A stretch of DNA of 64,000 bases. Origin: Prevotellaceae bacterium MN60 (GTDB lineage: Bacteria > Bacteroidota > Bacteroidia > Bacteroidales > Bacteroidaceae). This document shows positions 1-18,267 of the stretch, piece by piece. Where the stretch lies: the NCBI GenBank assembly GCA_900199555.1, contig FZQZ01000011.1:1-64000 (forward strand), read 5' to 3'. The position numbers were made by a program, and so were the translations under genes. Under the pieces are notes generated by a model. It was not told the origin of the DNA. It did no database searches and saw only the letters and a program-made list of their open reading frames with translations. Position 1 is the stretch's first letter, and every line of letters begins with the position of its first letter.

Positions 1-2609
1 CAGCGGCATTGCTGCTGACTGCCTGTACACAGGATATTGCGCAGGAGTTTTTTGCCGGTAACGATGACAATAGTGTTACCTTTACTGCGCAGACCATTAT
101 GACAGAGGATGAAACCCGTTCAGTCTCTGCTCCGGAGGCTTTGCCGCTGACAGGTGACGGTCTGAATCTGTGGCTGATGCCCTCGGAGACTCCGATGGCT
201 GGCGATGCCACGCGTGGCACTCAGATTAATTCCGTCAGCGAGCTGAGCAGTTTTGGCGTGTCAGCCTTTAAGCATGGCGCCATTCCCTCTGGCAAGACAC
301 TGAACGAATACCTGACAGATAACCATCTGAAGCCCGACTTCTTCTATAATATGGAAGCCACGAAGGTTACGGGTACGGAGAAGTTTAAACTGACAACAAA
401 CTATTACTGGCCCGCAAGCAATGAGACGCTGTCTTTCTTTGCCTATGCTCCTTATGGTGACGGTAATGTGGGTTTGTCAGCAGAGACCGCCGAAGGTCCT
501 CAGGTGATTACCTTTAAGGTGAACACGGTAGTGAAGGATCAGGCAGACTTCATGACTGCGCAGGCCAGCAGTACTGCACATACCAGTGCCAGTGAGACTC
601 CTTCCGTCCGTCTTAACTTTACCCACCATCTCACTGGTGTCCGCTTTGTGTTGGGCGACCAGTTCCTGAAGGGCTGGGTGAAGAGCATCTCTCTGAAGGG
701 TGTCTATACCGAGGGTAAATATACCATTGGTGGCAACTGGACGCTAGATGATACTAAGAAGGGTAACTTTACCATCAGCTATAACATGGATAAGCCTGTT
801 ACAGGCACTCCCGGTGAGACGGTTACAGCTCCGAACGAGACCTTCCTGATGATTCCTCATACATTTGCCGACGATGATGCCGCAACGATTGAGGTGGTGT
901 ATAACGATGGCTATACTGACTATATCGTCAGTGCTCCATTGAAAGGTCAGACATGGAAGGCTGGTAAGACGGTTACCTATGCTATCACATCGAAGAAGCT
1001 GACAACGCTACAGATCTCTTCAATCACCTTCCCAACAACTCCGTTGGCAGCCGATGGTATGCCTGATAAAGCGAAAGCCTGGCAGGCTGGCGATAAGGTA
1101 GGTATGTATGTGGTAGGTTCTGATGGAATGAAATTGAAGCATAAGAATATCCCAGTAACTTTCGATGGTACGAAGTGGAATATAGACCACACCACAGCAG
1201 AGGGTACTATCTATAAGCTGCCTGGTGAGTCGTTCTACTTCTACTATCCTTATAGCACTGCTAGTAATAATCAGCCTTTAGGCTATCCCGAACAGTGTCC
1301 TGAGTTGAAGGCCGAGGCTCCCGTATTCTTTGAGGGCGTAATAGATTATTTCCCCATAAAGACTAATCAAAGTGTACTTGAGGATTTCATCTCCTGCGAT
1401 TTGATGGTGGCAAAAGCAGAGGATGAAGGTCATGCTTCAACGATTAAAGCCACGATGGAACGTCAAGTTGGTATCGCCGTTATTAAACTTGCAACAAAAA
1501 CGATACCAGAGACGATTACCTATTTGAATAATGTTCAGCAAAGTACGTCTGGTACATATACGATTACAGCCTCTAATAACTTCCTAAATAATATACCTAA
1601 GGTTAATGGTGGAAAGTACTATTTTTTCACCAAAGTGGGAGGCACTACGACTTTTAATAGTATAACTACCGAGAAGCATTATTGGACGAATGCGCTTGAG
1701 TTTAATTTAGGAAAGAATGCCGCATTAGAAAAAACCGCCCAGACTACGGTTGAATGGGATTGGACATTCAAGACAAAAGCTACCTATAACTACGACTATC
1801 AGAATAAGGTATATTCTCTCACAGCTCCTAGTGCTGTTAATGCATATTTAGAGGTCTGGGGAGCACAAGGTTCTGAACCTGCCACATATAATGCGGCCTT
1901 AGCTGGAAAGGGAGGATATTCTTATGGCAACAAACAATTAAGTAAAGATGCAATGCTTTATGTTTGTGTTGGAAGAAAAGGTTATGATTATGGATATGAC
2001 AATCAATATGTGAACAAGAATCTTGCATATTTCAATAGTATGAGACCATATAACGGTGGAGGATATGGACACTCTTTTGGAGGTGGTGCAACACATATTG
2101 CATCTGCACTGAGAGGAACTGGAGTACTTGCCGATTATAAGAATTACAAAGGTGAAGTCGTAATTGTGGCAGGTGGCGGCGGTGGTTGTGAAGTATCCAG
2201 TGGGCACGGAGGTGCAGGAGGAGGAACTTCTGGTGGAGACGGCAGTGGAACTTCTGGCTTTACTGGAGCAACAAACTCAAATAACGGTAAAGGTGGTACT
2301 CAAACAGCAGGTGGCGCAGCAGGTACCGCCTATTCCGGGTATGCTGCAGGTTTCGCTGGTGAGTTTGGACTCGGAGGTCACTCTATTGCACTTAACGTAT
2401 ATGAAAAAGGCTCTGGTGGTGGCGGAGGATGGTATGGCGGGGGAGGCTCCTGCTGTTATGCTATGTCAGGTGGCGGAGGCTCCGGATATATTGGTGGAGT
2501 CTCTGGAGGTAATACAATAACTGGTAATGCTAGTCAGAAGCAACCTAACGGAACTACAACAACAGGACACTCTGGTAACGGCTATGCCCGAATCACCTTG
2601 ACACACTAG
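1..2609 (+). CDS. Fimbrillin-like lipoprotein with switchable glycine-rich C-terminal domain (expressed shufflon gene, 5' partial)
   Basis: The gene is open at the left window edge; the frame runs from position 3 and shows a lipobox (Leu-Thr-Ala-Cys) within its first codons, so it is probably an exported, lipid-anchored surface protein. Two fimbrillin-type (Mfa-like) domains follow: residues about 20-330, and about 335-590 beginning with the WQAGDKVGMYVV motif typical of this family. From the recombination site at 1784 (residue about 593) to the end (274 aa) the protein is a glycine-rich domain of the ALK/LTK type (starting EVWGAQG, then VIVAGGGGG, ending GHSGNGYARITLTH). The same kind of domain is repeated in five silent cassettes downstream, so this is the expressed copy in the orientation seen here. 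Function as a surface adhesin is inferred. Compared with the other cassettes this one lacks the ATDIRL and SSFISGHSG motifs. Confidence 0.85.
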   Translation, partial: AALLLTACTQDIAQEFFAGNDDNSVTFTAQTIMTEDETRSVSAPEALPLTGDGLNLWLMPSETPMAGDATRGTQINSVSELSSFGVSAFKHGAIPSGKTLNEYLTDNHLKPDFFYNMEATKVTGTEKFKLTTNYYWPASNETLSFFAYAPYGDGNVGLSAETAEGPQVITFKVNTVVKDQADFMTAQASSTAHTSASETPSVRLNFTHHLTGVRFVLGDQFLKGWVKSISLKGVYTEGKYTIGGNWTLDDTKKGNFTISYNMDKPVTGTPGETVTAPNETFLMIPHTFADDDAATIEVVYNDGYTDYIVSAPLKGQTWKAGKTVTYAITSKKLTTLQISSITFPTTPLAADGMPDKAKAWQAGDKVGMYVVGSDGMKLKHKNIPVTFDGTKWNIDHTTAEGTIYKLPGESFYFYYPYSTASNNQPLGYPEQCPELKAEAPVFFEGVIDYFPIKTNQSVLEDFISCDLMVAKAEDEGHASTIKATMERQVGIAVIKLATKTIPETITYLNNVQQSTSGTYTITASNNFLNNIPKVNGGKYYFFTKVGGTTTFNSITTEKHYWTNALEFNLGKNAALEKTAQTTVEWDWTFKTKATYNYDYQNKVYSLTAPSAVNAYLEVWGAQGSEPATYNAALAGKGGYSYGNKQLSKDAMLYVCVGRKGYDYGYDNQYVNKNLAYFNSMRPYNGGGYGHSFGGGATHIASALRGTGVLADYKNYKGEVVIVAGGGGGCEVSSGHGGAGGGTSGGDGSGTSGFTGATNSNNGKGGTQTAGGAAGTAYSGYAAGFAGEFGLGGHSIALNVYEKGSGGGGGWYGGGGSCCYAMSGGGGSGYIGGVSGGNTITGNASQKQPNGTTTTGHSGNGYARITLTH
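1784..1809 (+). repeat. Shufflon recombination site 1 (expression site)
   Basis: A 26-bp sequence with core CTATAACTACGACTAT, located inside the lipoprotein reading frame and encoding YNYDYQNK. It is the junction between the constant fimbrillin part and the variable glycine-rich part. The same sequence occurs five more times, at the start of every silent cassette, in both orientations. The core has weak dyad symmetry (CTATAR against CTATCAG read from the other side). Confidence 0.85.
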
Positions 2610-2627
2610 CCCATCTAATTATAACAT

Positions 2628-2663
2628 ATAGCGCAGGAGGAGTCTTCCTCTTGTGCTATTTTT
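2628..2663 (+). terminator. Terminator after cassette A
   Basis: A 14-bp near-perfect stem (ATAGCGCAGGAGGA with TCCTCTTGTGCTAT), a 4-nt loop and then TTTTT, 18 nt after the stop codon. The 3' flank from the stop to about 2692 is clearly homologous to the flank of cassette F on the minus strand (about 7866-7945), so A and F share an ancestor including their terminators. Confidence 0.8.
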
Positions 2664-3390
2664 ATTGGTATATTTGGGATATTTCAGAAGAAATTATTCT
2701 TTTTAGACAATATTAGATATTAAGCGTCTTTTTCCTCAGTGAAAATAGTTTGACGGCATTTTACGGATAGTTTGGCGGCATAATTCGAGGAGTATTTACA
2801 CATAATTCTCTTTGAATTTACGCATAATTCTTGTGACAGCGATTTTTCCTACAGAGAGACATTTGCCTCCCTGACTCCTTTTACTTCTGAAAACAGTTTA
2901 TTCATAAAATCATCTAACCTTCTAACCCAATAGGGCTGAAACCATGATATACAAAGGATTTAAGCTGGGTTAGATGATGCTAGACATCTAACCCACATCT
3001 ATCCCAATAATATATATATATGAAGTGACCTGAAGTGACCGTGAAGTGACCCGAAAAGTTGGACGGGTTAATACTTATCGCAAAAGGGTTAATAGAGGGT
3101 TAGAAGTTGACAAACATCTAACCCGCGTAAGACTCAATGCAGATAGGCATTTGAAGGGCCTTGGGTTAGAAGGTTAGATGTTCTTGCAAGTTAACTCTTT
3201 TTCTGATGATATGGTAGAGGAATACTGCAGATTCAACTCTGAATACGACTGTCTTGAGGTGCAAGAATTGCTAATACGGCGTTCGGTATAGCTAATTTAG
3301 TGTTGAATGAGCTATATTCGGGGTAATCACTATCATATAAACTAATACTATTATATGAGTGACATTGTTCTTTATTAGTTAACAAACATT
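2664..3390. other. Non-coding gap between cassettes A and B with repeated hairpins
   Basis: No credible gene is visible. The stretch contains an exact 20-bp inverted repeat, two internal 10-8-10 hairpins built from GGGTTAGA and TCTAACCC, and three tandem copies of TGAAGTGACC (3021, 3031, 3042). It lies inside the segment that inverts when B replaces A. Confidence 0.6.
2911..3180. repeat. Inverted repeat pair with nested hairpins
   Basis: CATCTAACCTTCTAACCCAA at 2911-2930 is repeated as its exact reverse complement at 3161-3180. Between them are a perfect hairpin (2967-2976 with 2985-2994) and a nearly perfect one (3097-3106 with 3115-3124), both made from GGGTTAGA/TCTAACCC half-sites separated by 8 nt, plus the TGAAGTGACC triplet. 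The regular half-site geometry looks like protein binding sites or a relic of a mobile element; no function can be assigned. Confidence 0.7.
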
Positions 3391-3424
3391 AGATGGCATA
3401 GGGTACTAAACTCCTATGCCATCT
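3391..3424 (-). terminator. Hairpin downstream of cassette B
   Basis: Perfect 12-bp stem (AGATGGCATAGG with CCTATGCCATCT) around a 10-nt loop, 28 nt beyond the stop of cassette B on the minus strand. The T-tract is weak, so termination is probable rather than certain. Confidence 0.6.
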
Positions 3425-3452
3425 ATTTGAGTCCACGTAATAAATCGTTTTA

Positions 3453-4368
3453 TTAATGTGTCAATGTTATTCGGGCATAACCATTACCGGTATGACCTAT
3501 TTCGGTTCCACCTCCTGGTTTAGTCTGATTAGTTAGCCCTCCCTTAGATGTGGTCCACGAGTACCCACGTCCATCAATCATTGATGTGTTTGTAAAGGAG
3601 TAGTCCGTATTGTTATATGTAACAACACTCGCATTGCTCCCTGACTTCATTGTAACTACGTCGTAGGTTTCTGTTGTGGCGGTGGCTACATTTCTATTAT
3701 CCAGTATATTTCTAGTACTAGTGGTCGCAGATAAAATGGCTAAACATCCATTATGCCCCGCAATAAAAGATGAGCCACCTGCACTACTAAGTCTATATGT
3801 TTCACCTTGATAATTTCCAGGACAATTACTTGTAAGGCCACCCCAATAGCCACCACCTCCTCCGCTTGCAGAAGCTCCGAGGTCAGCATCCTCTCCATAA
3901 CCTAAACGATATCCACTACTTTGCGTGGCATTACCGCCGCCTTTCGAGGTGTAACTAGTTAATCCTCCTGCAGCTCCTGCAGGGTTCGTACGTTCAGCAC
4001 CAGCACCACCACCTGCGACAATAATTCTAGAAAGCAGACTATTGAAATCATTCCAATTACCAGATCTCAAACGGATATCAGTGGCTCCTCCTCCTGATGC
4101 ACATCCATCATCAGTGGCGGCACATCGTCCACCGCCATTGAAAGTTCTTGTTTCTCCATTTTTTGTTCCTGCGCCTCCAACATATACATATAAGTTCAAA
4201 TTTGATGGAAGACTAATAGTTCCCTTTACATAGCCTCCGCATCCACCTCTATAATGGGTATAAGTATTGATGATAGGCCCTCCTTCTGCTCCCCAGCACT
4301 CCATGGTGGCTATAGCAGCACAAGGCATAGTGAAGGAATGAGCCTTATTCTGATAGTCGTAGCTATAG
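3453..4368 (-). CDS. Silent glycine-rich cassette B (shufflon)
   Basis: An open frame of 304 codons running from the recombination site (4343-4368) to a stop at 3453. It has no promoter, no ATG, no ribosome binding site and no signal peptide of its own; the only upstream in-frame start is a TTG in the spacer. The product begins YSYDYQNKAHSFT, then MECWGAEGG, GGATDIRL, RIIVAGGGAG, SSFIAGHNGC and ends GHTGNGYARITLTH, the plan of an ALK/LTK-like glycine-rich domain. Its site is inverted relative to site 1, so a single inversion of 1784-4368 would join it in frame to the constant lipoprotein part and silence cassette A. Confidence 0.85.
4343..4368 (-). repeat. Shufflon recombination site 2 (cassette B)
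   Basis: Core CTATAGCTACGACTAT followed by CAGAATAAGG on the minus strand, identical to site 1 over 26 bp except A to G at position 6. Opposite orientation to site 1, so recombination with it inverts rather than deletes. Confidence 0.85.
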
Positions 4369-4439
4369 CGAATAAAAATAAACAAAACAGTAAATTTTTC
4401 TTCACATATTTACCGGCTACTAATCCCAATTCTTTTACT
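4369..4439. repeat. 71-bp spacer between back-to-back cassettes B and C (copy 1)
   Basis: This 71-bp non-coding sequence separates the divergent sites 2 and 3. It is repeated at 6423-6493 between cassettes D and E with only four substitutions. It contains AT-rich sequence with no TAnnTTTG promoter. Conservation of a non-coding spacer argues for a role in recombination or for recent duplication of the cassette pair. Confidence 0.8.
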
Positions 4440-4465
4440 CTATAACTACGACTATCAGAATAAGG
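4440..4465 (+). repeat. Shufflon recombination site 3 (cassette C)
   Basis: Identical to site 1 over all 26 bp, same orientation. Direct recombination between sites 1 and 3 would delete cassettes A and B, so the recombinase presumably disfavours direct sites or such products are lost. Confidence 0.85.
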
Positions 4466-5250
4466 CCTATACATTCACCCCTTGTACAGGTACTGCCGTT
4501 ATAGAATGTTGGGGAGCGCAAGGCAAAACTTACTATTCTGCATTTCCAGGCGGTAAAGGTGGTTACACAAAAGGAACTATCAGCTTGAATAAGACAGATA
4601 TCCTTTATGTATATGTGGGCAATAATGGTGGTTCATTTAATGGCGTTGGTAATGGTGGCGGTGCTACGGATATTCGTTTGATAGATGGTGCTTGGAATAA
4701 TTTTAATTCTCTTAAATCTCGTATTATGGTTGCTGCAGGAGGTGGTGGCCCGCAAGACTATTATGATGGTTATGACTACCGATGTCCTGGTGGGTATGCG
4801 GGTGGACTTACTGGTGGTAGCGCATCTACAAAGCATTATCCTAGCGGAACTTATATTTCATCAGGAGCGGCTCAAACGAGCGGGGGAATTTGTTCAAGTT
4901 ATCCTGCTTGGAAAGGTGGTTTTGGTTACGTAGCGGATTCCGGTCATGGACGAGGCGGTATGGGATATTATGGAGGCGGTTCTGGTCCCTATATGGATTG
5001 TTTATGTGGTGCAGGTTCTGGCGGTTCTTCATTTATTTCAGGTCATTCTGGGTGTAATGCCATTAATGAAAGCTCAACTGACAAATTTAATATGAGCCAT
5101 AGAGGTATTTCAACTCACTATTCTGGTAAGATTTTTACTAATACGCAAATGATTGCAGGTAATGCTACTCAGACAAAACCTGGTGGAGGTACAGAAACTG
5201 GACATAGTGGAAGTGGATATTGTCGCATCATTATGACCCGTTCGTTGTAA
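4440..5250 (+). CDS. Silent glycine-rich cassette C (shufflon)
   Basis: An open frame of 269 codons starting directly at the recombination site (YNYDYQNKAYTFT) and ending at 5250. No start codon lies in frame near the site; the first ATG in frame is at 4585, well inside the domain. The body shows IECWGAQG, GGYTKGTISL, YVYVGNNGG, GGGATDIRL, RIMVAAGGGG, SSFISGHSGC and QTKPGGGTETGHSGSGY, the conserved frame of the other cassettes, with variable segments between. It points in the same direction as the expressed gene, so it can reach the expression site without deletion only after an earlier inversion has flipped it. Confidence 0.83.
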
Positions 5251-5420
5251 TATAAAGAATAAGAAGGTGTGATATGATTGACGTGAATCCTAGAAACACT
5301 CTGTCCAATTTTTAGAATTCGAAGTATCTTGCTACATCCTTAATACAAACATAAGTAATTATTCATTAAAATTTGCGCCTATACCCATTGATTCCAAGAT
5401 ACCTCAATTGTAACAAGACA

Positions 5421-5450
5421 AAATCCCCTGACTTTTGTTAGGGGATTTTT
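5421..5450. terminator. Bidirectional terminator between cassettes C and D
   Basis: Stem AAATCCCCTGAC with GTTAGGGGATTT and a TTTT loop; T-runs follow on both strands. It serves the convergent 3' ends of C (stop at 5250) and D (stop at 5498). Confidence 0.75.
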
Positions 5451-5497
5451 GCCAAATCTTTTTTCATATCACAATCTACATATTGCGCATGATTTCA

Positions 5498-6422
5498 TTA
5501 GCGTACAACAGTTACACGAGCATAACCATTACCAGTATGTCCTCTTTCAGTTCCGCCTGTAGGCTTTGTTTGATTAGTCAGAGTCTTTGTCGAAGCGTTT
5601 GTCCACTTATAGCCTCGTCCATCGATAACCTCGGTAGAGCCACTATTAAATACATAACCGGAGTAGTGGTTGGGCTGACTTGTATGTTGCCTGTTTGATG
5701 CTGTGGCATTACTACCTACAGCATTAAAGCCAGGATGCCCCGAGATAAATGAAGAACCACCACCGCCGCCAGTATGTGAAGAGCCAGGATGTACGCCATG
5801 CCCACCACCATAATAGCCACCTCCACCACCTGAAGATGTCGTGGTTCCTGGTGCCAACGGATTGTTTCCATACCCTCCCATAAAGAAAGATCCTTTTGCA
5901 TTACCGAAACTAGCGCCAGAATCTATAGTTGAAGTACCTTGACCACAAGCACCGCCTGCAGTTTGAGAAGCGCCATAACCTGACCAGTGATAACCAGCAT
6001 AATACGCACAATAGCCATTGGCATCATAACCGTTGTAAGCACCTCCTTCACCAGGAGTTCTATTTGTGAATACTACTTGACTATTACCACCTCCGTCATA
6101 GAAAGCGCCTCCACCGCCAGCAGCTACCATAATACGTGATTTCCAACCATTAAAGTCTTGAGTATTAGTTAAGCGAATATCAGTAGAACCTCCTCCCGGT
6201 TGTTCACCAATAGCTCCTCCGTTGGTACCACCAGAACCGACATATACATAGAATGGTCCTTTTTTCTCATTTGTCAGTGTTAGAGTTCCTTTGGTGTAAG
6301 CACCCTTACCTGGATCTAAATGAGTTCTTCTTTCACCCTGGCTACCCCAACATTCAAAAGTGCATGTACCTAAGATAGGCGGTGTAAATGTATAGGCAAC
6401 ATTCGTATAGTCGTAGCTATAG
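5498..6422 (-). CDS. Silent glycine-rich cassette D (shufflon)
   Basis: An open frame of 307 codons from the site at 6407-6422 to a stop at 5498. It starts YSYDYTNVAYTFTPP, then FECWGSQGE, GAYTKGTLTL, YVYVGSGG, GGGSTDIRL, RIMVAAGGGG, GGGGGYYGGG, SSFISGHPGF and GHTGNGYARVTVVR. It lacks a promoter, ATG and signal peptide. Unlike the other cassettes its similarity to the recombination sequence stops after the 16-bp core (TACGAAT in place of CAGAATA). The inverted orientation makes it a one-step partner of site 1. Confidence 0.84.
6407..6422 (-). repeat. Shufflon recombination site 4 (cassette D, short form)
   Basis: CTATAGCTACGACTAT on the minus strand. Only these 16 bp match the other sites, which delimits the minimal conserved core of the recombination sequence, assuming the site is still active. 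Confidence 0.75.
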
Positions 6423-6493
6423 CGAATAAAAATAAACAAAACAGTAAATTTTTCTTCACATATTTACCAACTATTAATCCTAATTCTTTTACT
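6423..6493. repeat. 71-bp spacer between back-to-back cassettes D and E (copy 2)
   Basis: Second copy of the spacer at 4369-4439, same length and same orientation, four substitutions (all in the right half). Confidence 0.8.
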
Positions 6494-6519
6494 CTATAGC
6501 TACGACTATCAGAATAAGG
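6494..6519 (+). repeat. Shufflon recombination site 5 (cassette E)
   Basis: CTATAGCTACGACTAT plus CAGAATAAGG, identical to site 2 but in the plus orientation. Confidence 0.85.
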
Positions 6520-7421
6520 CTCATTCCTTTACTAGCCCAATAACTGGTACAGCTACCATGGAGTGTTGGGGAGCACAAGGTGGATCTTTCGGTTCTTATC
6601 GTGGCGGATATGGAGGATATACCAAAGGGAATATCTCCATACAGAAGAATGCTGTCTTCTATGTATATATAGGACAGGCTGCAAATCGCTTCAATGGTGG
6701 TCATGTAGCTGTGGGGTTTGGCGGCGGCTCTGGCGGTGGAACCGATGTTCGTTTGGTGAATGGAGATTGGGATAATGCTACTAGTCTCCGCTCAAGAGTT
6801 ATTGTAGCTGGTGCTGGTGGCGGTGCATGTCAGAGAGGCGAGGGCTATGGTGACGGAGTTGGCGGTTATGGCGGCGGCCTGACTGCAGGAACAGGACAGG
6901 TCACTAATCGTTATGGAACAAACGCAAATTATGGATACTCAACACTAACTGGTGGAACGCAGACCTCTGGCGGAACTTGCTATTGGAATGATACTGGTGC
7001 TCATGCTATTACTGCAGGCTATTGGTCTGGTCTTGCTGGAAGTTTCGGTATGTGTACTGCTTTAAACGGTCAGTCAAACCACAATGTTCAAGGATGTGGC
7101 GCAGGAGGCTGGTATGGCGGCGGTAGTGGTGGACATTCCGCTGGCGGCGGTGGATCTTCATTTATTTCAGGTCATTCTGGTTGTAACCCAGTTAATGCAA
7201 GTACTGGAGCTCATCTTGGTGTCGGGAAAACGACTACAATAAATAACGTACAGTATGTATTCTCTAGCATAAGTATGATAGATGGTGCAGGATATAACTG
7301 GCCATCCAATTCTACGGCACGCGGATCTTTATTGGCTATGCCAAAACCTGGTGGTGGCAATTATACTTCTGGTACAGGTCATACTGGCAGTGGCTATGCA
7401 CGCATCACTGTAATGCATTAG
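6494..7421 (+). CDS. Silent glycine-rich cassette E (shufflon)
   Basis: An open frame of 308 codons beginning at the recombination site (YSYDYQNKAHSFT) and ending at 7421. Conserved landmarks are MECWGAQGG, GGYTKGNISI, YVYIGQ, GGGTDVRL, RVIVAGAGGG, QTSGGTC, WYGGGSGG, SSFISGHSGC and GHTGSGYARITVMH. Its first 13 codons resemble those of cassette B, a sign of shared descent or exchange. It is in the direct orientation relative to the expressed gene and therefore needs a prior inversion to be expressed. An ATG at 6558 exists inside the domain but has no promoter or export signal. Confidence 0.84.
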
Positions 7422-7476
7422 AAAGACAACATACTAGGGCTGTGTCCTATGCAACGACAAAGAGTTTATACAAGAT

Positions 7477-7508
7477 ACAGGATGTGCCTTATGATACATC
7501 CTGTTTCT
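7477..7508 (+). terminator. Terminator after cassette E
   Basis: Stem ACAGGATGT with ACATCCTGT, 10-nt loop, followed by a short T-rich stretch; 55 nt after the stop of cassette E. Confidence 0.65.
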
Positions 7509-7551
7509 TATTATGGTCTTGTTTATATGCCAAAGCATAAAAACTATATTT

Positions 7552-7656
7552 TTACTTATCCTCTTGGAACATCTTTATTTCATTATCGAAATGAGAAATG
7601 ATGTCATCAAGATTTGGATGCTGACGTAGAACAATAATAGCAAGAAAATTCTCCAT
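7552..7656 (-). pseudogene. Possible remnant: 34-codon minus-strand reading frame
   Basis: In the 524-bp gap between cassettes E and F the minus strand holds a short frame starting MENFLAIIVLRQHP and rich in Asp/Glu at its end. It lies just downstream of another short frame (7735-7821). Together they look like pieces of one eroded small gene. No family recognised; low certainty. Confidence 0.3.
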
Positions 7657-7734
7657 ACCTTCATCTGAATGAGTTAGCCTTGGCGCGTTGGATCTCTTCT
7701 TTCATCTTTGTCAATTTTCCTCCATTCTAGCCTA

Positions 7735-7821
7735 TCACTGTTTCTTGTACTCGCGATAAGCCCTTACAGACTTTTTGAAAGTACCAACCGGGTGGTCAAA
7801 TGTAATTGCTTTTGTTTCCAT
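7735..7821 (-). pseudogene. Possible remnant: 28-codon minus-strand reading frame
   Basis: Starts METKAITFDHPVGTFKK, reads like the N-terminus of a small soluble protein, and is cut by a TGA after 28 codons. An AAAGGAAG purine stretch lies upstream. Likely the 5' part of a decayed gene within the invertible region; otherwise the E/F gap shows nothing. Confidence 0.3.
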
Positions 7822-7890
7822 ATATTTTCGTATTACTTCCTTTCTTTGTGCAAAATTACGTTTTTTGCTGAAATATCCAAATCATATCAA

Positions 7891-7927
7891 TAAAAATAGC
7901 ACAAGAGAAGTCACTCTCTTGTGCTAT
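7891..7927 (-). terminator. Terminator after cassette F
   Basis: Perfect 13-bp stem (ATAGCACAAGAGA with TCTCTTGTGCTAT), 6-nt loop, then TTTTT on the minus strand. Homologous to the terminator of cassette A. Confidence 0.8.
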
Positions 7928-7945
7928 ATCTCATGATTAGATAGT

Positions 7946-8837
7946 CTAGTGTGTCACGGTGACTCGGGCATAACCATTACCAGTATGACCTGTTTCGGTG
8001 CCACCTCCAGGCTTTGTTTGAGAGGTCTTACCATCTTTTATAACAGTCGTTCCACTAGTAAATTGATAAGAGGAATTCTGCACTGTACAACCGGAATGAC
8101 CATTAATGTATGACGAGCCGCCACCGCCACCATGCCAAAGACCGCCACCGCCGCCATAGTAGCCAGCGCCACCGCCGCCACCGCCGCCATAGTCAGTAAA
8201 ACAGTCGCCGCCTCTACCAAAAGATGCATTTCTTGTACCACCAGCAGTTTGACTTCCGCCTTGTCCAAATTCATATCCAGTATTTACTGTACTATGAGCC
8301 GCATAACCAGACGTTCCACCAGCTTCGCCACCATAGTCATAAACATTATGGCCACCGCCACCGCCACCACCTGCTGCTACCATCAGCACATTTGCTTTAC
8401 TGCAGCTAGCAAGTAGGGCATTCTGTAAGGCAACATGTGTTGCGCCTCCACCGGCTGCACCATTATGCGTTAGCCTATTTCCGCCATTCATCCATTCTTG
8501 TCCTTTACCGCCGCCATTATAACCGCCGGCAGGATTTCCATAGACGCCACTTCCACCTTTATTAGTAGTAGTTCTGGCATTAGTACCCTTACCCCCTATG
8601 CGTATATATAATTTGGTATCTTTTGCCAAGGTGAGATTACCTTTTGTATAGCCTCCCCTACCGCCAGGATTTGCAGTTGGAGCCAAATCTGCTTGCGATG
8701 GGATGTCTGGCTTTCTTGAGTCCATATAGTTAGAATATCCAGTTCCTCCTTCTGCGCCCCAACATTCTATAGAAGCGGTTCCGGATGTGGGGCAGGTAAA
8801 GGTATAACTGTTGTTATTCTGATAGTCGTAGTTATAG
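7946..8837 (-). CDS. Silent glycine-rich cassette F (shufflon)
   Basis: An open frame of 296 codons from the site at 8814-8837 to a stop at 7946. It begins YNYDYQNNNSYTFT, then IECWGAEGG, GGYTKGNLTL, LYIRIGGKG, GGYNGGG, GAAGGGATHVAL, VLMVAAGGGGGGG, GGGGGAGYYGGG, SSYINGHSGC and GHTGNGYARVTVTH. It carries the longest uninterrupted glycine runs of the set. Like cassette A it has ATH in place of the ATDIRL motif, and its 3' flank is homologous to that of A. It has no promoter, start or signal peptide. The inverted site makes it a one-step partner of site 1. It lies next to the recombinase gene. Confidence 0.85.
8814..8837 (-). repeat. Shufflon recombination site 6 (cassette F)
   Basis: CTATAACTACGACTAT followed by CAGAATAA; the match to site 1 covers 24 bp here and extends 2 bp further upstream (AC before the core). 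Minus orientation. It is the last site before the recombinase promoter region. Confidence 0.85.
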
Positions 8838-8932
8838 GTTCTAAAGAAAAAAGAAATTGTAATAAGATGTTTGAAGACGTAGTACGTTATATATATAATG
8901 TCTGGTTATAAATAACAAAAACTTAGAAAACT

Positions 8933-9736
8933 ATGGTTGAGAAATTTAAAAAGAATCTGATGCATGCCAATATGGCTCAGAACACAATTACGGCATATGT
9001 TTATGCTGTTAATGATTTTTATTCACGTTATAAAGAGTTGAATAAAAAGAATCTGTTACTCTACAAAACCCATCTTATTGAGAATTTTAAACCAAAGACG
9101 GTTAATCTGCGTATCTTGGCGTTAAATAAGTACGTGGACTTCTTGCGTAAACCCAATTTGCGAGTTAAGTCCATTAAACTGCAACAGCGTACCTATTTGG
9201 AGAATGTAATTAGTAATGCGGATTATACGTTTCTGAAAAATAGATTGAAGAAGGATGGGAAACAGGAGCTTTACTTCATCGTTCGTTTTCTGGCTGCTAC
9301 TGGGGCTCGCGTGAGCGAATTGGTGCAGCTGAAGGTGGAACATGTAGATGCTGGCTACTATGATATATATACAAAAGGTGGAAAGATACGAAGATTGTTT
9401 ATTCCAAAGAAATTGCGTGATGAGGCTTTAAAGTGGCTGAATGAGCAAGGGCGTGAGTCGGGATATCTATTCTTGAATAGACAGGGGAGGCGTATAACTA
9501 CTCGTGGCGTTGCTCAGCAATTGAAACATGCTGCGCTGGCATATGGTCTTGACACGAGGGTGGTATATCCTCATAGTTTTCGTCATCGCTATGCCAAGAA
9601 CTTCTTAGAGAAGTTTAATGATATTGCGTTGCTAGCCGATTTGATGGGGCACGAGAGTATTGAGACTACTCGCATTTATCTGCGTCGTACGGCTAGTGAA
9701 CAGCAGGCAATCGTGGATAAAGTTATTACTTGGTAA
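8933..9736 (+). CDS. Tyrosine recombinase (putative shufflon DNA invertase)
   Basis: A 267-aa phage-integrase-family protein. An N-terminal SAM-like core-binding domain (residues about 1-85) precedes the catalytic domain with the full set of active residues: Arg126 in GARVSEL, Lys151 in TKGGKIRR, His214 and Arg217 in PHSFRHRY, His240 in LMGHES and nucleophile Tyr249 in TRIYLRR. The length is that of compact Xer/invertase-type recombinases without accessory domains. It sits 95 bp beyond the last cassette site and is the only recombinase in the window, so it is the obvious candidate to act on the six sites. There is no directionality factor, transfer or phage gene nearby, which argues against an integrated mobile element. 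Substrate assignment is inferred from position. Confidence 0.88.
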   Translation: MVEKFKKNLMHANMAQNTITAYVYAVNDFYSRYKELNKKNLLLYKTHLIENFKPKTVNLRILALNKYVDFLRKPNLRVKSIKLQQRTYLENVISNADYTFLKNRLKKDGKQELYFIVRFLAATGARVSELVQLKVEHVDAGYYDIYTKGGKIRRLFIPKKLRDEALKWLNEQGRESGYLFLNRQGRRITTRGVAQQLKHAALAYGLDTRVVYPHSFRHRYAKNFLEKFNDIALLADLMGHESIETTRIYLRRTASEQQAIVDKVITW

Positions 9737-9740
9737 CGCA

Positions 9741-9823
9741 GTACAAAAGGCCTGTACTATTGGTACAAAAGCTCTGTACAGGTAGTACAAGGGGGCTGTA
9801 CGGGTAGTACAAAGGCTTTGTAC
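9741..9823. repeat. Four 17-bp palindromes at exact 22-bp spacing
   Basis: GTACAAAAGGCCTGTAC, GTACAAAAGCTCTGTAC, GTACAAGGGGGCTGTAC and GTACAAAGGCTTTGTAC start at 9741, 9763, 9785 and 9807, with 5-bp linkers. The outer GTACAA/TGTAC arms are conserved and the middle varies. The array begins 5 bp after the recombinase stop codon. Two helical turns per unit suggests cooperative protein binding on one face of DNA; no T-run follows, so it is not a terminator. Confidence 0.85.
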
Positions 9824-9890
9824 TAGTATGAAATGGGCTATTTGTGAGGCGAAAAATAATAAAAGGCTATATCGTGCGTTATATTAAGGT

Positions 9891-11006
9891 ATGCAGTGGA
9901 CTGACAGAATCAGACAGATAAAGATAATATTGGTGGTGGCTGCGGTGATGATTGCCGTGGCATCGCTATTGGTGTCTCACTTTCTGGTGCGCGACCTCTC
10001 GATAGAAGAGCGTCATCGTATGGAGGTGTGGGCGCAGGCACTGCATGCACTGAATGAGGCAGACGAGACAACTGACTTGTCGTTGGTGCTGGATGTGATA
10101 GAGGGAAACAATACGATTCCCGTTATCGTGGTGAACAGTGAGGGTGGGATAGACGACTACCGTAATATAAAGGATACAACAAGCATCCAGCAGTATGCGA
10201 AGCGTATGATACAGTCGGGTGACACCATTCGCATTGATAGACAGCTGGTATGCTACGATGAGTCGATCATGCTGAAACGACTGCAGGCATGGCCGTATGT
10301 ACAGTTGGGTATCGTGCTGATATTCGTGGTCGTGGCTATCTTTGCATTGTTGTCGTCGAAGCGTGCAGAACAGAATAAGGTATGGGTGGGCTTGTCGAAG
10401 GAAACTGCTCACCAGTTGGGTACGCCCGTGTCGAGTTTGATGGCATGGGTAGAGATGCTGAAGGAGCAATATCCAGAGGATAATCTGTTGCCAGAGATGG
10501 ATAAGGACGTGAAGCGACTGCAACTGATTACTGACCGATTCTCAAAGATTGGTTCGCTGCCGGAGCCTGTTGATGCTTCGATGAACGAGGTGTTGGCACA
10601 TGTGGTGGACTATATGGACCGACGTACGTCGAATCAGGTGCAGATGATTAGACAACTGCCTGAACATGAGGTCATCGTAAAGATGAATGCTTCGCTGTTT
10701 GAGTGGGTCATAGAAAACCTCTGCAAGAATGCTGTTGACGCGATGGAGGGCAAGGGTACTATCACGCTGACCCTCTATGACGAGCCGCAGGATGTGGTGA
10801 TAGAGGTACAGGATACGGGTAAGGGTATTAAGAAGAAAGACCTGAACAGTGTGTTTACTCCGGGCTTTACCACGAAGAAACGTGGTTGGGGACTCGGTCT
10901 GTCGCTTGCCAAGCGTATCGTAGAAGAGTATCACAAAGGACGTATCTTTGTGAAACAATCGGAAGTGGGGAAGGGTACCACGTTCCGTATAGAAATGAAA
11001 AAATAA
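9891..11006 (+). CDS. Membrane sensor histidine kinase (orphan)
   Basis: 371 aa. Two transmembrane segments (about residues 10-32 and 136-155) enclose a periplasmic domain of roughly 100 residues. The cytoplasmic part has an H-box with His174 in KETAHQLGTP, then N-box (NLCKNAVDAM), G1 (DTGKGI), F (FTPGFTTKK) and G2 (GWGLGLSLAKRI) motifs of the HATPase fold. It should autophosphorylate on His174 and signal to a response regulator, but no regulator gene is adjacent. No HAMP domain is evident. It follows the recombinase and the 22-bp array; a functional link is not shown. Confidence 0.85.
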   Translation: MQWTDRIRQIKIILVVAAVMIAVASLLVSHFLVRDLSIEERHRMEVWAQALHALNEADETTDLSLVLDVIEGNNTIPVIVVNSEGGIDDYRNIKDTTSIQQYAKRMIQSGDTIRIDRQLVCYDESIMLKRLQAWPYVQLGIVLIFVVVAIFALLSSKRAEQNKVWVGLSKETAHQLGTPVSSLMAWVEMLKEQYPEDNLLPEMDKDVKRLQLITDRFSKIGSLPEPVDASMNEVLAHVVDYMDRRTSNQVQMIRQLPEHEVIVKMNASLFEWVIENLCKNAVDAMEGKGTITLTLYDEPQDVVIEVQDTGKGIKKKDLNSVFTPGFTTKKRGWGLGLSLAKRIVEEYHKGRIFVKQSEVGKGTTFRIEMKK

Positions 11007-11014
11007 ACGAAAAT

Positions 11015-11046
11015 TTTGGCTATTAGCAAAAAAGTTCGTAACTTTG
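11015..11046 (+). promoter_or_regulatory. Promoter of the DUF177-rpmF-fabH group
   Basis: TTTG at 11015-11018 and TAACTTTG at 11039-11046 with a 20-bp spacer, the standard Bacteroidota arrangement, about 20 bp before the ATG. Confidence 0.7.
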
Positions 11047-11067
11047 CAGCCCGAAAAAAGTGTAATT

Positions 11068-11595
11068 ATGTGTAGTTTAGAGCGCTTGAAGGTTGATTTG
11101 AAAGGTATGAAGGAGGCTGTAATGACCTCTGAATATGACCTTGGAGATGAGTTCTTTGGGGCTCTGGACGGCTCACAGTTGGAACATGGAGCCTTGCATG
11201 TGTCGGTATCTATACGCAAGATGACCGGCTTTTTCGAACTCCAGTTTCATACCGAAGGTGCCGTTACTGTAAGCTGCGACCGCTGTCTTGATGACATGGA
11301 GCAGCCTATTGTTGCGGATAATACCTTAGTGGTAAAGTTGGGCGAAACATACAGCGATGAAGATGACACCGTGACGATTGACGAGAACGAAGGAATACTC
11401 GACATGTCATGGTTCATTTATGAGTTTATTATGCTGGCCATACCCATCAAGCACGTTCATGCACCTGGAAAATGCAATAGTGCGATGACGCAGAAGCTGG
11501 AAGAGCTGAGCGGCGCTGTCCGAAGCAGCGAAGAGGAGGCAAAGGAGATAGACCCACGCTGGCAAGCACTGGCAAAGTTAAAAAGTGAAGAGTGA
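11068..11595 (+). CDS. DUF177 (YceD) family protein
   Basis: 175 aa from the ATG at 11068, which fits the promoter just upstream; a longer frame from a TTG at 11044 would overlap that promoter. The family signature is visible: FELQFHTEGAVTVSCDRCLD near residue 60, with CDRC, and a later C in APGKCN. YceD proteins are conserved next to rpmF, as here, and in plants and bacteria are linked to 23S rRNA accumulation. The gene is followed by rpmF after 67 bp. Confidence 0.88.
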   Translation: MCSLERLKVDLKGMKEAVMTSEYDLGDEFFGALDGSQLEHGALHVSVSIRKMTGFFELQFHTEGAVTVSCDRCLDDMEQPIVADNTLVVKLGETYSDEDDTVTIDENEGILDMSWFIYEFIMLAIPIKHVHAPGKCNSAMTQKLEELSGAVRSSEEEAKEIDPRWQALAKLKSEE

Positions 11596-11662
11596 GAGGT
11601 GAGGAATTTGCTTCCGCTCGAAAAAAAAGTAAAAAAAGTAAAATTTAAAAAGTAATAGCATT

Positions 11663-11851
11663 ATGGCACATCCTAAAAGAAGACAATCAAACACCCGCAC
11701 CGCTAAGCGTCGTACTCATGACAAGGCAGTAGCTCCTACACTGGCAGTATGCCCTAACTGTGGAGCTTACCACATCTACCACACTGTATGCCCAACTTGT
11801 GGATACTATCGTGGTAAGATCGCTATTGTAATGGACGAAGTTGCTGAGTAA
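11663..11851 (+). CDS. rpmF: 50S ribosomal protein L32
   Basis: 62 aa, the usual length. N-terminus [21 protein letters not shown] is replaced here only in details from other L32 proteins. Two CxxC pairs (CPNCGAYH and CPTCGYY) form the zinc ribbon. Part of the large ribosomal subunit near the peptidyl transferase entrance. It sits between DUF177 and fabH, the classic yceD-rpmF-fab arrangement, with only 5 bp to fabH. Confidence 0.97.
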
Positions 11852-11856
11852 AGGTA

Positions 11857-12864
11857 ATGGATAAAATCAATGCGATAATCACCGGAATTGGTGGCTACGT
11901 GCCCGATTATGTTCTGAATAATGACGAACTGTCGCGCATGGTAGACACCAACGACGAGTGGATTATGACTCGCGTTGGTATTAAGGAACGCCGCATCCTG
12001 ACAGAGGAAGGTCTCGGCACTAGCTATATGGCGCGTAAGGCTGCCAAGCAGTTGATGCAGAAGACTGGCGTGGACCCCGATACTATCGATGCAGTTATCG
12101 TAACCACTTCTACGGCTGATTATAAGTTCCCGTCTACAGCCAGCATCGTAGTTGGCAAACTTGGATTGAAGAATGCTTTCGCATTCGATCTCTGGGGTGC
12201 ATGCTGTGGATTCCTCTACACGCTCGACGTGGCTGGCTCTATGATACAGAGCGGTCGTTACAAGAAAATCATCGTGATCGGTGCCGACAAGATGTCGTCA
12301 GTGGTTGACTATAAAGACCGCGCTACCTGTCCGCTGTTTGGTGACGGTGCTGCTGCTGTGTTAGTGGAAGCAACAGAAGAAGAGAATATCGGTGTGATGG
12401 ACTCTTACTTCCGTGCTGACGGCAAGGGCCTGCCCTTCCTTCACCTGAAGGCTGGCGGTTCTGTATGTCCTCCCTCACACTTTACGGTGGATCACCGTTT
12501 GCACTACCTCTATCAGGAGGGTCGCACCGTGTTCCGTTATGCCGTAACCAACATGAGTGAAGACAGCGCACTCATCGCTGAGCGCAACGGACTGAACAAG
12601 GACAACATCGCATGGGTTGTTCCTCATCAGGCAAATATGCGCATCATCGAGGCTGTAGCTAAGCGCTTGGAACTGCCTATGGATAAGGTGATGGTGAACA
12701 TCGAGCATTTCGGTAACACCTCTGCTGCCACTATCCCCTTGGCTCTCTGGGAGAATGAGCATCTGTTGAAGAAGGGTGATAACATGATTTTCACCGCCTT
12801 CGGTGCAGGTTTCGTTCACGGAGCAAGCTACTATAAGTGGGCCTATAATGGCAGCGAAAAGTGA
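11857..12864 (+). CDS. fabH: 3-oxoacyl-ACP synthase III
   Basis: 335 aa thiolase-fold enzyme that starts fatty acid synthesis by condensing acyl-CoA with malonyl-ACP. The catalytic triad is visible: Cys116 in LWGACCGF, His in [10 protein letters not shown] and Asn in HFGNTSAAT. An early GIKERR motif lies in the CoA-binding region. It is slightly longer than the about 317 residues of E. coli FabH. It follows rpmF at 5 bp and precedes era at 21 bp, suggesting one transcript. Confidence 0.95.
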
Positions 12865-12885
12865 AGAGTGAAGAATGACTGATTA

Positions 12886-13779
12886 ATGCATAAAGCAGGA
12901 TTCGTAAATATCGTTGGGAATCCCAATGTAGGTAAAAGTACGCTCATGAACCAATTGGTTGGTGAGCGTATTTCGATAGCGACGTTTAAGGCACAAACGA
13001 CGCGTCATCGTATTATGGGTATCGTCAATACCGACGATATGCAGATTGTATTTTCTGATACTCCAGGCGTATTGAAGCCCAACTATAAACTGCAGGAGTC
13101 AATGCTCGCTTTCTCGGAGTCTGCACTGCAAGATGCAGATGTACTGCTCTACGTAACGGATGTGGTAGAGACACCCGAGAAGAACATGGAGTTCTTGGAG
13201 AAGGTGCAGAAGATGAAAATTCCTGTCATTCTGCTCATCAACAAGATTGATGAACTGGCAGGTGATACTAGTCAAGCTAGATTAGGCGAGATTGTTGAAA
13301 AATGGCATGCATTGTTGCCCAACGCAGAGATTCTGCCAATATCGGCAAAGAATAAGTTTGGCGTGGACATGTTGCTGAAGCGCATCCAGGAACTGTTGCC
13401 CGAGAGTCCCGCATTCTTCGATAAAGACCAGTTGACGGATAAGCCTGCACGCTTCTTTGTATCGGAAATCATTCGCGAGAAGATACTACTCTATTATGAT
13501 AAGGAAATACCTTATTCAGTAGAGGTGCGCGTGGAACGCTTCAAGGAAACAGAGAAGCATATCCATATCAACGCAATCATCTATGTGGAGCGCGATTCGC
13601 AGAAGGGTATCATTATTGGTCATCAGGGTATGGCACTCAAGAAAGTAAGCACCGAAGCTCGCAAGTCGTTGGAGAAATTCTTCGCCAAACCCATCTTCTT
13701 GGAAACCTTTGTTAAGGTAGATAAAGACTGGCGTAGCTCTGAGAGAGAGCTGAATAGCTTTGGATATAATTTAGATTAA
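12886..13779 (+). CDS. era: GTPase Era
   Basis: 297 aa. GTPase domain with G1 GNPNVGKST, G3 DTPG and G4 NKID, followed by a C-terminal KH RNA-binding domain with GxxG-type loop (IIGHQGMALKKV). Era binds the 3' end of 16S rRNA and assists 30S maturation. It is followed at 70 bp by der, another ribosome-assembly GTPase. Confidence 0.96.
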   Translation: MHKAGFVNIVGNPNVGKSTLMNQLVGERISIATFKAQTTRHRIMGIVNTDDMQIVFSDTPGVLKPNYKLQESMLAFSESALQDADVLLYVTDVVETPEKNMEFLEKVQKMKIPVILLINKIDELAGDTSQARLGEIVEKWHALLPNAEILPISAKNKFGVDMLLKRIQELLPESPAFFDKDQLTDKPARFFVSEIIREKILLYYDKEIPYSVEVRVERFKETEKHIHINAIIYVERDSQKGIIIGHQGMALKKVSTEARKSLEKFFAKPIFLETFVKVDKDWRSSERELNSFGYNLD

Positions 13780-13849
13780 ATAGGAGGAACTAGGAAAACC
13801 TAGGATATCTTAGGATGACTAGTAAATCTAGCATTAAATACTAGAAATT

Positions 13850-15163
13850 ATGGGAAATTTAGTAGCGATTGTAGGACGCCCAAATGTAGGTAAGTCCACT
13901 TTGTTTAACCGATTGACGAACAGCCGTCGCGCCATTGTGAGCGATGAGGCTGGTACTACGCGTGATCGCCAGTATGGCAAATGTGAGTGGAATGGCCGTG
14001 AATTCTCCGTAGTGGATACGGGTGGATGGGTTGTAAATAGTGATGATATCTTTGAAGAGGAGATTCGCAAGCAGGTGATTGTTGCCACAGAAGAGGCCGA
14101 CCTGGTATTGTTCTTGGTGGATATCAAGAATGGACTGACGGATCTTGACGAGGATGTAGCACTGATTCTTCGTCGCTCTAAGCTGCCCGTAGTGCTGGTA
14201 GCTAATAAGGCCGATGATGGTAAAGACCTATACGGACAGTATGAGTTCTATAAGTTGGGACTGGGTGATCCGTTTTGTGTCAGTGCTGCAACAGGTAGTG
14301 GTACCGGCGACTTGCTCGACCATGTACTAGAGAAGTTGAAGACTGACGAGGTGGATGATATCGAGGACGGTACACCACGCTTTGCTGTAGTAGGTCGTCC
14401 TAATGCTGGTAAATCAAGCATTATCAATGCCTTTATCGGTGAGGACCGTAACATCGTAACAGATATCGCTGGTACTACCCGTGATAGTATCTATACCAAG
14501 TACGACAAGTTCGGCTTTGATTTCTATCTGGTTGATACTGCCGGTATCCGCAGAAAGAATAAGGTAACAGAAGATTTGGAGTTCTATAGTGTGATGCGTA
14601 GCATTCGCGCTATTGAGAATTCTGATGTCTGCATCCTGATGATTGATGCTACTCGTGGTATCGAGGCACAGGATATGAATATCTTCCAGTTGATTCAGAA
14701 GAATAACAAGTCGCTGGTAGTCGTTGTCAACAAGTGGGACTTGGTAGAGGATAAGTCGCAGGAGGCTATCAAGACCTTTGAATATGCCATTCGTAACCGT
14801 ATGGCTCCATTCGTAGATTTCCCCATCATCTTCGCCTCTGCTGTAACCAAACAGCGTATCTATAAGGTGCTGGAGACTGCCAAGCAGGTATATCTGAACC
14901 GTACGATAAAGATTGGAACCTCTAAGCTTAACGAGGTCATGCTGCCTATCATCGAGCAGACACCGCCACCATCTATCAAGGGTAAGTATATTAAGATTAA
15001 GTATGTGTCTCAGGTGCCCGATACACAGATACCCACCTTTGTGTTCTATGCTAATCTGCCCCAGTATGTCAAGGAGGCTTATCGTCGCTTCTTAGAGAAT
15101 AAAATGCGTGAGAACTGGACACTGACGGGTACACCGATTAACGTATTCATCCGACAGAAGTGA
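13850..15163 (+). CDS. der: GTPase Der (EngA)
   Basis: 437 aa with two tandem GTPase domains (G1 GRPNVGKST at residue 8; second GRPNAGKSS near residue 182; G3 DTGG and DTAG; G4 NKAD and NKWD) and a C-terminal KH-like domain. Required for 50S ribosome assembly. The 70-bp leader after era contains several CTAGG/CTAGT words of unclear meaning. The stop overlaps the GTG start of the next gene. Confidence 0.97.
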
Positions 15164-15561
15164 GCAAGAAAGCGTATCTTATAGCAGGTCTGATGGCGCT
15201 GATAGGTTTGGTGGGCTGTAGTGAAATCAGTCCTGAACAGCAAGCAGCAGAAGCCGCAAAAGCCTATTATACTCGTTTGTTGGAAGGCGCCCCTGAAGGA
15301 TTCTTATCGGGTAAGGTGGATTATGATAGTCTGCCTGCCGACTATCGTCAGCAGTTATTGAAAGCTCACGAACAGTATATGCAAGATATGCAGCAGCATC
15401 ACGAAGGCTTGTGTGCGGTAACCATCTCGCCCAATGTGGCACGTAGGGATACTACATTGCATTTGGTATATGCCTTTTTGCTTTTGTCGTATAATGATTC
15501 TACTCAGGAGGAAATTACCGTACCGATGGTAGAGGTTAATGGAGAGTGGAAAATTAAATAA
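15160..15561 (+). CDS. Small lipoprotein, DUF4878-like
   Basis: 133 aa, starting at a GTG that overlaps the der stop (GTGA), so translation is probably coupled. Lipoprotein signal with lipobox Leu-Val-Gly-Cys at residue 20. The mature part (about 110 aa) starts with a helical [15 protein letters not shown] segment and ends [10 protein letters not shown], a plan shared with NTF2-like/DUF4878 lipoproteins. Function unknown. Confidence 0.75.
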
Positions 15562-15567
15562 AAAAAT

Positions 15568-15603
15568 AAAGGATTGAATATTTCGTTATTCAATCCTTTA
15601 TTT
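15568..15603. terminator. Bidirectional terminator
   Basis: 13-bp stem AAAGGATTGAATA with TATTCAATCCTTT, loop TTTCGT, with A/T-rich tracts on both sides. It ends the plus-strand der operon and, from the other side, the small minus-strand gene at 15602-15703. Confidence 0.8.
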
Positions 15604-15703
15604 AATATGCTATTCTGTAGTTGTACATTCTTGCCATGTTAATGCAATATTCTTTGTAAGCCTTGCTTTCAATCCATTTCTTTAATAACTTTTTCATAAT
15701 CAT
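15602..15703 (-). CDS. Small basic 33-aa protein of unknown function
   Basis: A short gene with complete signals: promoter TACCTTTG (15758-15751 on the minus strand), a purine-rich AAAGAAAGGA site, ATG at 15703 (or 15697) and a stop at 15602 directly before the terminator. The product MIMKKLLKKWIESKAYKEY continues to CINMARMYNYRIAY; it is Lys/Arg-rich with amphipathic helical character. No family recognised. Occupies the gap between the der operon and the MlaE gene. Confidence 0.6.
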   Translation of the reverse strand: MIMKKLLKKWIESKAYKEYCINMARMYNYRIAY

Positions 15704-15750
15704 TTCCTTTCTTTTTCTTTAATAAATCGTCATCCTTCTTAATCTCGATG

Positions 15751-15781
15751 CAAAGGTACGTATTTTCAGGGTGTTACGCAA
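15751..15781 (-). promoter_or_regulatory. Promoter of the 33-codon gene
   Basis: TACCTTTG on the minus strand at 15758-15751, with TTG about 20 bp upstream near 15780. Confidence 0.6.
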
Positions 15782-15876
15782 GAAAAACGGAGAATTGTTT
15801 GCGTTAACAGCTGTTTTGTTGACCTGTGTCAATCCTAAAAAAGTGAAATTTCTTTTTATTTCTCTCACTTATTTCG

Positions 15877-15884
15877 TAACTTTG
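15877..15884 (+). promoter_or_regulatory. -7 element before the MlaE-type permease
   Basis: TAACTTTG; the ATG follows only 8 bp later, so the transcript has a very short leader. No clear TTTG was seen at -33. Confidence 0.6.
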
Positions 15885-15892
15885 CATCCGAT

Positions 15893-17403: not shown

Positions 17404-17430
17404 AAATAATAAGAGAGAATATTACCGATT

Positions 17431-18228: not shown

Positions 18229-18267
18229 TAAATCATAATTCATAAGCCGTAATTCATAAATAATGCG

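Follow-up and report, generated by a model that had tools for sequence, protein, structure and literature searches.

The shufflon of plasmid R64 exchanges the C-terminus of a pilus adhesin, pilV, by inversion of segments between multiple half-conserved sites, and is served by an adjacent tyrosine recombinase, Rci (PMC11852207). Site-specific inversion also acts on restriction specificity and on surface proteins: PsrA of Streptococcus pneumoniae inverts hsdS at short inverted repeats (PMC7096588), Bacteroides fragilis carries SusC/SusD and restriction-modification shufflons (PMC5729914), and fimbrillin genes have been placed near inverton groups, with hsdS in inverton group 145 (PMC11892184). 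The locus considered here lies at the start of contig FZQZ01000011.1 (C19) of Prevotellaceae bacterium MN60, whose 2.74-Mb genome is assembled in 24 contigs; the first 64 kb of this contig, from base 1, were analyzed and are called the window. A fimbrillin-type lipoprotein body is followed there by six cassettes encoding glycine-rich domains (GRDs), each opening with a copy of the same 22-bp site, and by one tyrosine recombinase gene (Table 1). Judged from its sequence, the locus is, with a probability of close to nine in ten, an R64-like shufflon that swaps six GRD tips on one lipoprotein body.

With R64 (pilV/Rci) the locus has in common multiple sites between segments, a predicted C-terminal swap of the pilus-adhesin type, an adjacent dedicated tyrosine recombinase and, possibly, sites with one conserved and one variable side. 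It differs in lying on a chromosomal contig, in building on a fimbrillin lipoprotein rather than a type IV pilus protein, and in using whole ALK-type domains as cassettes; set against the published description of Rci, its recombinase (267 aa) lacks the extra C-terminal domain, belongs to an hsdS-associated family and stands beside a different site. The recombinase family, a related in-coding motif and its codon phase are shared with hsdS shufflons that use a tyrosine recombinase, such as PsrA (compared by description) and Bacteroides restriction-modification systems, although the product here would be a surface-protein tip and not a DNA-recognition subunit. The B. fragilis SusC/SusD intergenic shufflon (Tsr0667; Region EE) likewise varies Bacteroidales surface proteins by multiple inversions, but there whole genes move behind a promoter, with sites by the start codon, whereas here the C-terminal domain alone would move, within coding sequence (PMC11852207, PMC5729914). 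The working of the locus appears R64-like, but its enzyme and its cassettes differ from those of R64. A GRD cassette array is not described in the available portions of PMC10939037, PMC11892184, PMC5729914, PMC5903667, PMC7096588, and PMC11852207, and no description of such a locus was found in the literature searched; the likeliest catalogue, Milman et al. 2023, lay outside that search, which leaves priority unproven.

The 22-bp site CTATARCTACGACTATNNGAAT occurs exactly six times in the genome, always at this locus and three times per strand (reversed-pattern control, 0). Its reading frame starts with the codons TAT AAC/AGC TAC GAC TAT and gives Y-N/S-Y-D-Y-Q/T-N in each cassette, c6 having an additional N; from the site, c1 to c6 remain open, in frame and without a stop, for 274, 304, 269, 307, 308, and 296 codons, respectively. 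The preliminary description had proposed strictly alternating orientation and a common in-frame sequence opening all six domains, and both proposals hold: three plus and three minus sites alternate, and the cassettes form three tail-to-tail segments (c1|c2, c3|c4, c5|c6) that meet head to head over two spacers, identical to each other at 67 of 71 bases. Just outside the site, the flanks of c2 and c4 are identical at 35 of 35 positions, against 51.8% for the cassettes themselves, and those of c3 and c5 at 31 of 35. The 22 bp are conserved while the left flanks of c1, c3/c5, c2/c4, and c6 differ; inspection by eye found no convincing palindromic arms in the window site.

In the proposed mechanism, the recombinase would flip DNA between the six alternating sites and so fuse any of the six GRDs in frame to the body. 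The invertible units would be the three double-ended segments and the two site-flanked 71-bp spacers; inversion of the site at 1784 with any minus-strand site would swap the C-terminus, bringing in c2, c4, or c6 in one step, while c3 or c5 would take two. When inversions between oppositely oriented sites were explored breadth-first, 384 arrangements and 48 cassette orders were reached, the alternating pattern was always kept, and no cassette needed more than two steps to arrive at the expression site; 384 is also the maximum given for an artificial 5-module shufflon (PMC11852207). The earlier suggestion of at least six versions of a surface adhesin agrees with these simulated inversions, which bring all six tips to the body, the adhesin role itself being a prediction.

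The expressed gene is a single open frame (3–2609, plus strand) truncated at its 5′ end by the contig edge. Its body matches Mfa_like_1 (PF13149; E 8.6e-26) and shows both the Mfa-like domain and the fold of a fimbrillin or type V pilus subunit, and its C-terminus matches ALK_LTK_GRD (PF12810; E 2.5e-23). The LTAC near the start of the body is taken to be lipobox-like. Comparison with a paralogue on contig C9 and with homologue P0002 indicates that 11 residues (MRYDHSIYAVA) are missing from the start; the gene had been called complete, which must be amended, as the first ~11 codons lie off the contig, while its variable C-terminal domain does begin at the site. The genome has seven PF12810 matches (E <= 0.001), namely the six cassettes, which score 83.8–137.4 bits (cut-off 24.5), and the C9 paralogue. 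Spare GRDs are 39–46% identical to the expressed GRD, and the cassettes are 46–60% identical to one another in DNA. Cassettes c2 to c6 lack a fimbrillin body, their stop-to-stop frames extending only 14–24 codons 5′ of the GRD match. They had been described as domains without promoter, ATG, or signal peptide; they are indeed bodiless, but absence of a promoter is unprovable, and sigma-70-like matches, the one promoter type scanned, were at chance level in positions 1–10,000 (22, against 24.1 ± 4.7 in shuffles). Terminator-like sites in the same interval numbered 13, against 7.8 ± 2.5 in shuffles.

In a confident alignment-based model, the site falls at the border of the fimbrial domain and the GRD. 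A single-sequence AlphaFold prediction of c1 had a predicted local distance difference test score (pLDDT) of 29.8 and was discarded in favor of that model. The cassette GRD passes the PF12810 cut-off and is modelled with the fold of the ALK/LTK glycine-rich (TG) domain, with which the human receptor ALK binds its ligand. A sequence search of the PDB with a six-cassette profile gave no match at E <= 0.1; the likeness to ALK is one of fold and Pfam family. The GRD is predicted to be an adhesive tip. It would stand exposed on a fimbrillin resembling type V pilus subunits and bind the ligand there, and swapping it would then alter adhesion or help the cell to escape phages or antibodies, with promoter and body remaining the same.

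The single tyrosine recombinase that had been reported to close the locus is present (PF00589), with an integrase domain at residues 108–254. R126, H214, R217, H240, and Y249 fit what we take to be the usual catalytic set, and the presumed catalytic Y249 lies 18 residues from the end. The closest other recombinase in the genome is 35% identical, and there is no second near copy. NCBIfam named only the recombinase, with every match, including those to XerA and integron-integrase models, below cut-off. Relatives were collected by scanning one genome per species and keeping the best 80 of 118 loci, whose recombinases are 59–82% identical to that of the window. An hsdS-like open reading frame (ORF) lies within ~6 kb in 61 of these 80 loci, and hsdS or an Eco57I-like gene in 64 (phmmer); Pfam assigned ten chosen neighbors to Methylase_S (eight) and Eco57I (two). 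A GRD was found within ~6 kb in none of the 80. In many of the 16 loci with neither hsdS nor Eco57I, the recombinase lies at the locus edge; neighbors were examined in two rounds, covering 8 and 6 of these loci. At L037, L049, L067, L075, L086, and L090, the recombinase relatives adjoin ordinary enzyme or repair genes (Pfam), with no hsdS or GRD within ~6 kb.

The family also supplies a motif for the sites. Inverted repeats of at least 14 nt lie near the recombinase in 53 of the 80 loci, the commonest shared words being TATGAGAAG (34 loci) and TATTATGAG (26 loci). A motif, GATAACTCGTATTATGAGAAG, was learned from inverted-repeat arms of at most 60 nt (616 arms, 53 loci; 45 loci contributing) with the window excluded, and the six sites rank 2, 3, 4, 11, 12, and 37 of 127,960 positions on both strands of the window; shuffles of three sites and their flanks attained the motif score in 8, 6, and 24 of 20,000. 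A TATTATGAG-like word stands in the phase D-N-x-Y-Y-E or S-S-Y-Y-E in seven of eight Pfam-confirmed hsdS ORFs, the phase of Y-N-Y-D-Y-Q at the window sites; L026, the eighth, carries the word out of phase, and of the two copies in L043 one keeps the phase and the other does not. Shared motif and codon phase tie the enzyme to the sites by data from outside the window. The target here is not hsdS, since genome-wide the sites occur only in the six GRD cassettes. The recombinase may have been recruited from a family that adjoins, and presumably shuffles, hsdS specificity genes.

Homologous proteins bear on exchange itself. Among 60 of the 120 listed lipoprotein homologues, compared in a protein database clustered at 90%, 13 pairs reach a body identity of 95% or more (rounded), and in the 12 of these with a GRD the C-termini are 33–53% identical. 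The exchange profile uses these 12 pairs and omits P0034/P0035, for which there is no precomputed PF12810 assignment. Pooled identity in successive stretches of the protein is 98, 98, 93, 87, and 69%, then 39% in the ten residues from the site; the drop (93% to 39%) thus sets in as much as 20 residues ahead of the site. This pattern indicates that relatives have swapped C-termini near the site position; frequency and enzyme are not given by these data. Of 157 lipoprotein homologues, 120 were listed, and none of these 120 fuses c2, c3, c4, c5, or c6 to a body (best identity, 49%). A search with c2 yielded P0122, an 85% identical relative with no body fusion. P0124, on a 2.1-kb contig and likewise with no body fusion, is 99% identical to c2 in its first half and unrelated in its second; it is either a chimeric assembly or a genuine break within a cassette. 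In viral contigs, there were four weak GRD matches among the matches listed.

The genome searches used samples drawn from larger groups, namely 398 genomes of the genus (site core and body), 299 genomes (PF12810), and 399 genomes, with at most three candidates per genome scored in the body and 399-genome searches. The 16-base core of the site matched in 10 of 398 genomes, the nine others holding one or two copies, none arrayed (the reversed control gave one match in each of 4 genomes). A relative of the body (E <= 1e-40) occurred in 9 of 398 and a PF12810 match in 7 of 299, the genome's own included in both counts. In genome G378, 12 ORFs that match the GRD, in mixed orientation, follow a fimbrillin-like body; one pair of them is identical and one nearly so over the part compared. 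Another site, ACACGGGAAGTGTGCA, most commonly read as YKHTGSVQTFTAP and with the dyad CACAC-GGGAA-GTGTG, occurs there 12 times, counting the body's own copy; a 15-base gap of N lies directly past the body's site, as if mixed arrangements had broken the assembly. Unlike in the window, some neighboring sites are oriented alike. This contig, which ends inside the array, yielded no relative of the recombinase from the window.

Genomes G024, G250, and G381 contain runs of whole GRD-lipoprotein genes, most with the palindrome TCTCTTCTCTCGCGGAGAGAAGAGA just upstream; one G024 gene that faces the other way has a 20-bp inverted copy upstream. In all three, a tyrosine recombinase of another subfamily (PF00589 + PF13102, 338–351 aa) adjoins a GRD lipoprotein, although in G381 this pair is on a different contig from the gene run. 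These runs are probably a whole-gene shufflon of another kind. In G055:C8 (L152, L125), five same-strand ORFs, four of them PF13149, precede a lipoprotein whose body is 85% identical, and this gene run is possibly a type V pilus operon.

The preliminary description had proposed a shufflon that swaps C-termini. All of its anatomy is present, and site motif, exchange among relatives, and domain border agree with it, so that we infer inversion. Several observations weigh against this conclusion. An alternative arrangement of this very locus appears in no read, strain, or contig. Motif rank 1 and ranks 5–10 (7 of the top 12) are non-sites, so that the motif alone does not suffice to pick sites, and an earlier, stricter fixed-seed motif ranked the sites only 15, 21, 93, 104, 108, and 114 of 127,948; site 4, with its two-base difference, may be weaker. 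Of the 12 exchanging pairs, three share proteins (P0012, P0023, P0032), P0014/P0017 are still alike ~30 residues beyond the site, and P0001/P0002 already differ in the final 100 body residues. Most of the swapped pairs belong to other lineages and are known from protein, not from site DNA, and 90% clustering hides pairs alike in both halves. The nearest relative, P0002 (96% identical body), has a tip close to none of c1 to c6, which points to differing tips in the lineage and not to a flip of this array.

Mosaic C-termini could also arise by RecA-dependent gene conversion, with the spare GRDs as silent donors, as in silent-pilin systems, and the recombinase as a bystander. Spare cassettes that are bodiless paralogues of the expressed tip are consistent with conversion, as is a break that is not sharp in some natural pairs; it is nevertheless very unlikely, since cassettes 46–60% identical in DNA share little well except the 22-bp site, and strict alternation and an adjacent recombinase with family-like sites would be left unexplained. 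A static or dead array, in which duplicated GRD fragments lie beside an unrelated or inactive recombinase, is rated lower still: five bodiless ORFs (269–308 codons) remain open and in register with the site, the recombinase has the usual catalytic residues, and the cassettes have diverged far more than the sites and their left flanks, which stay conserved (c2/c4 flank, 35/35 vs. 51.8%). It draws what weight it has from the fact that rearrangement was not directly seen, and from recombinase relatives that adjoin ordinary genes (lyases, uvrA-like, clpX-like; 6 loci examined).

The P0002 tip outside c1 to c6, the sub-threshold matches to XerA and integron-integrase models, and the several same-oriented neighboring sites in the G378 array would suit an integron-like recombinase that chiefly inserts and excises cassettes, with inversion secondary. 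Yet all neighboring site pairs in the window are inverted and none direct, double-ended segments suit inversion, and conservation on one side with a variable left flank is the asymmetry proposed to confine R64 Rci to inversion (PMC11852207), which makes capture and loss the least likely of these explanations. A phase-variable promoter was also considered and set aside.

With the shufflon preferred, a broader proposal is put at even odds: an invertase and its site motif, evolved to reprogram restriction enzymes, were captured for a combinatorial ligand-binding repertoire at the surface, with six interchangeable ALK-fold domains on one pilus-like body; the tip family came under shuffling at least twice more in the genus (the G378 array; the whole-gene arrays of G024, G250, and G381), and ALK-type domains would be a general switchable receptor of these bacteria. 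The locus itself would be a C-terminus-swapping Bacteroidales shufflon with complete ALK-fold cassettes, offering a direct test of bacterial GRD ligands. Inversion of restriction specificity and of surface specificity would be joined by one recombinase family and one in-frame site motif, and this sharing could make enzyme–site pairs predictable from sequence.

Table 1. Features of the locus (window positions) and related loci in other genomes; motif ranks are among 127,960 positions.
Feature	Position	Strand	Remark
Constant lipoprotein body	3..1784	+	Signal-peptide end with lipobox-like LTAC, then two fimbrillin-type domains
Site 1, expression junction	1784..1805	+	Motif rank 4
Cassette c1	1785..2609	+	GRD presently fused to body
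Terminator-like hairpin 3′ of c1	2628..2659	+	Terminator scan
Hairpin downstream of c2	3391..3424	.	By eye; not listed by scan
Cassette c2	3453..4367	-	GRD, presumably silent; PF12810, E 1.1e-39
Site 2	4347..4368	-	Motif rank 12
Head-to-head spacer, 71 bp	4369..4439	.	
Site 3	4440..4461	+	Motif rank 3
Cassette c3	4441..5250	+	GRD, presumably silent; PF12810, E 6.9e-36
Hairpin between c3 and c4 tails	5421..5450	.	By eye
Cassette c4	5498..6421	-	GRD, presumably silent; PF12810, E 8.7e-30
Site 4, two-base variant (AC for CA)	6401..6422	-	Motif rank 37
Head-to-head spacer, 71 bp	6423..6493	.	
Site 5	6494..6515	+	Motif rank 11
Cassette c5	6495..7421	+	GRD, presumably silent; PF12810, E 6.4e-32
Terminator-like hairpin 3′ of c5	7477..7504	+	Terminator scan
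Terminator-like hairpin 3′ of c6	7896..7927	-	Terminator scan
Cassette c6	7946..8836	-	GRD, presumably silent; PF12810, E 1.7e-33
Site 6	8816..8837	-	Motif rank 2
Tyrosine recombinase, 267 aa	8933..9736	+	PF00589, E 2.6e-27
G378 array	L131 (G378:C25:3000-22000) 7363-18999; L151 4705-5439		
Whole-gene GRD runs	L132, L133 (G024); L134, L130 (G381); L135, L136 (G250)		

The paralogue at the right end of C9 (L123, 14865–17738) carries a GRD of its own on an 86% identical body and lacks the site. Both C9 and C19 end at the starts of these paralogous genes, and the assembly therefore probably broke at a repeat formed by the 5′ region. Within the locus, the non-coding c1|c2 gap contains, at 2890–3201, repeated GGTTAGA...TCTAACCC units and GAAGTGACC units. 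GTAC-rich imperfect repeats, read by eye, lie directly 3′ of the recombinase gene at 9738–9826. Farther downstream on the recombinase strand are, among others, genes for a histidine kinase, 3-oxoacyl-ACP synthase III, and two ribosome-binding GTPases, ordinary genes that place the locus in ordinary chromosome on that side.

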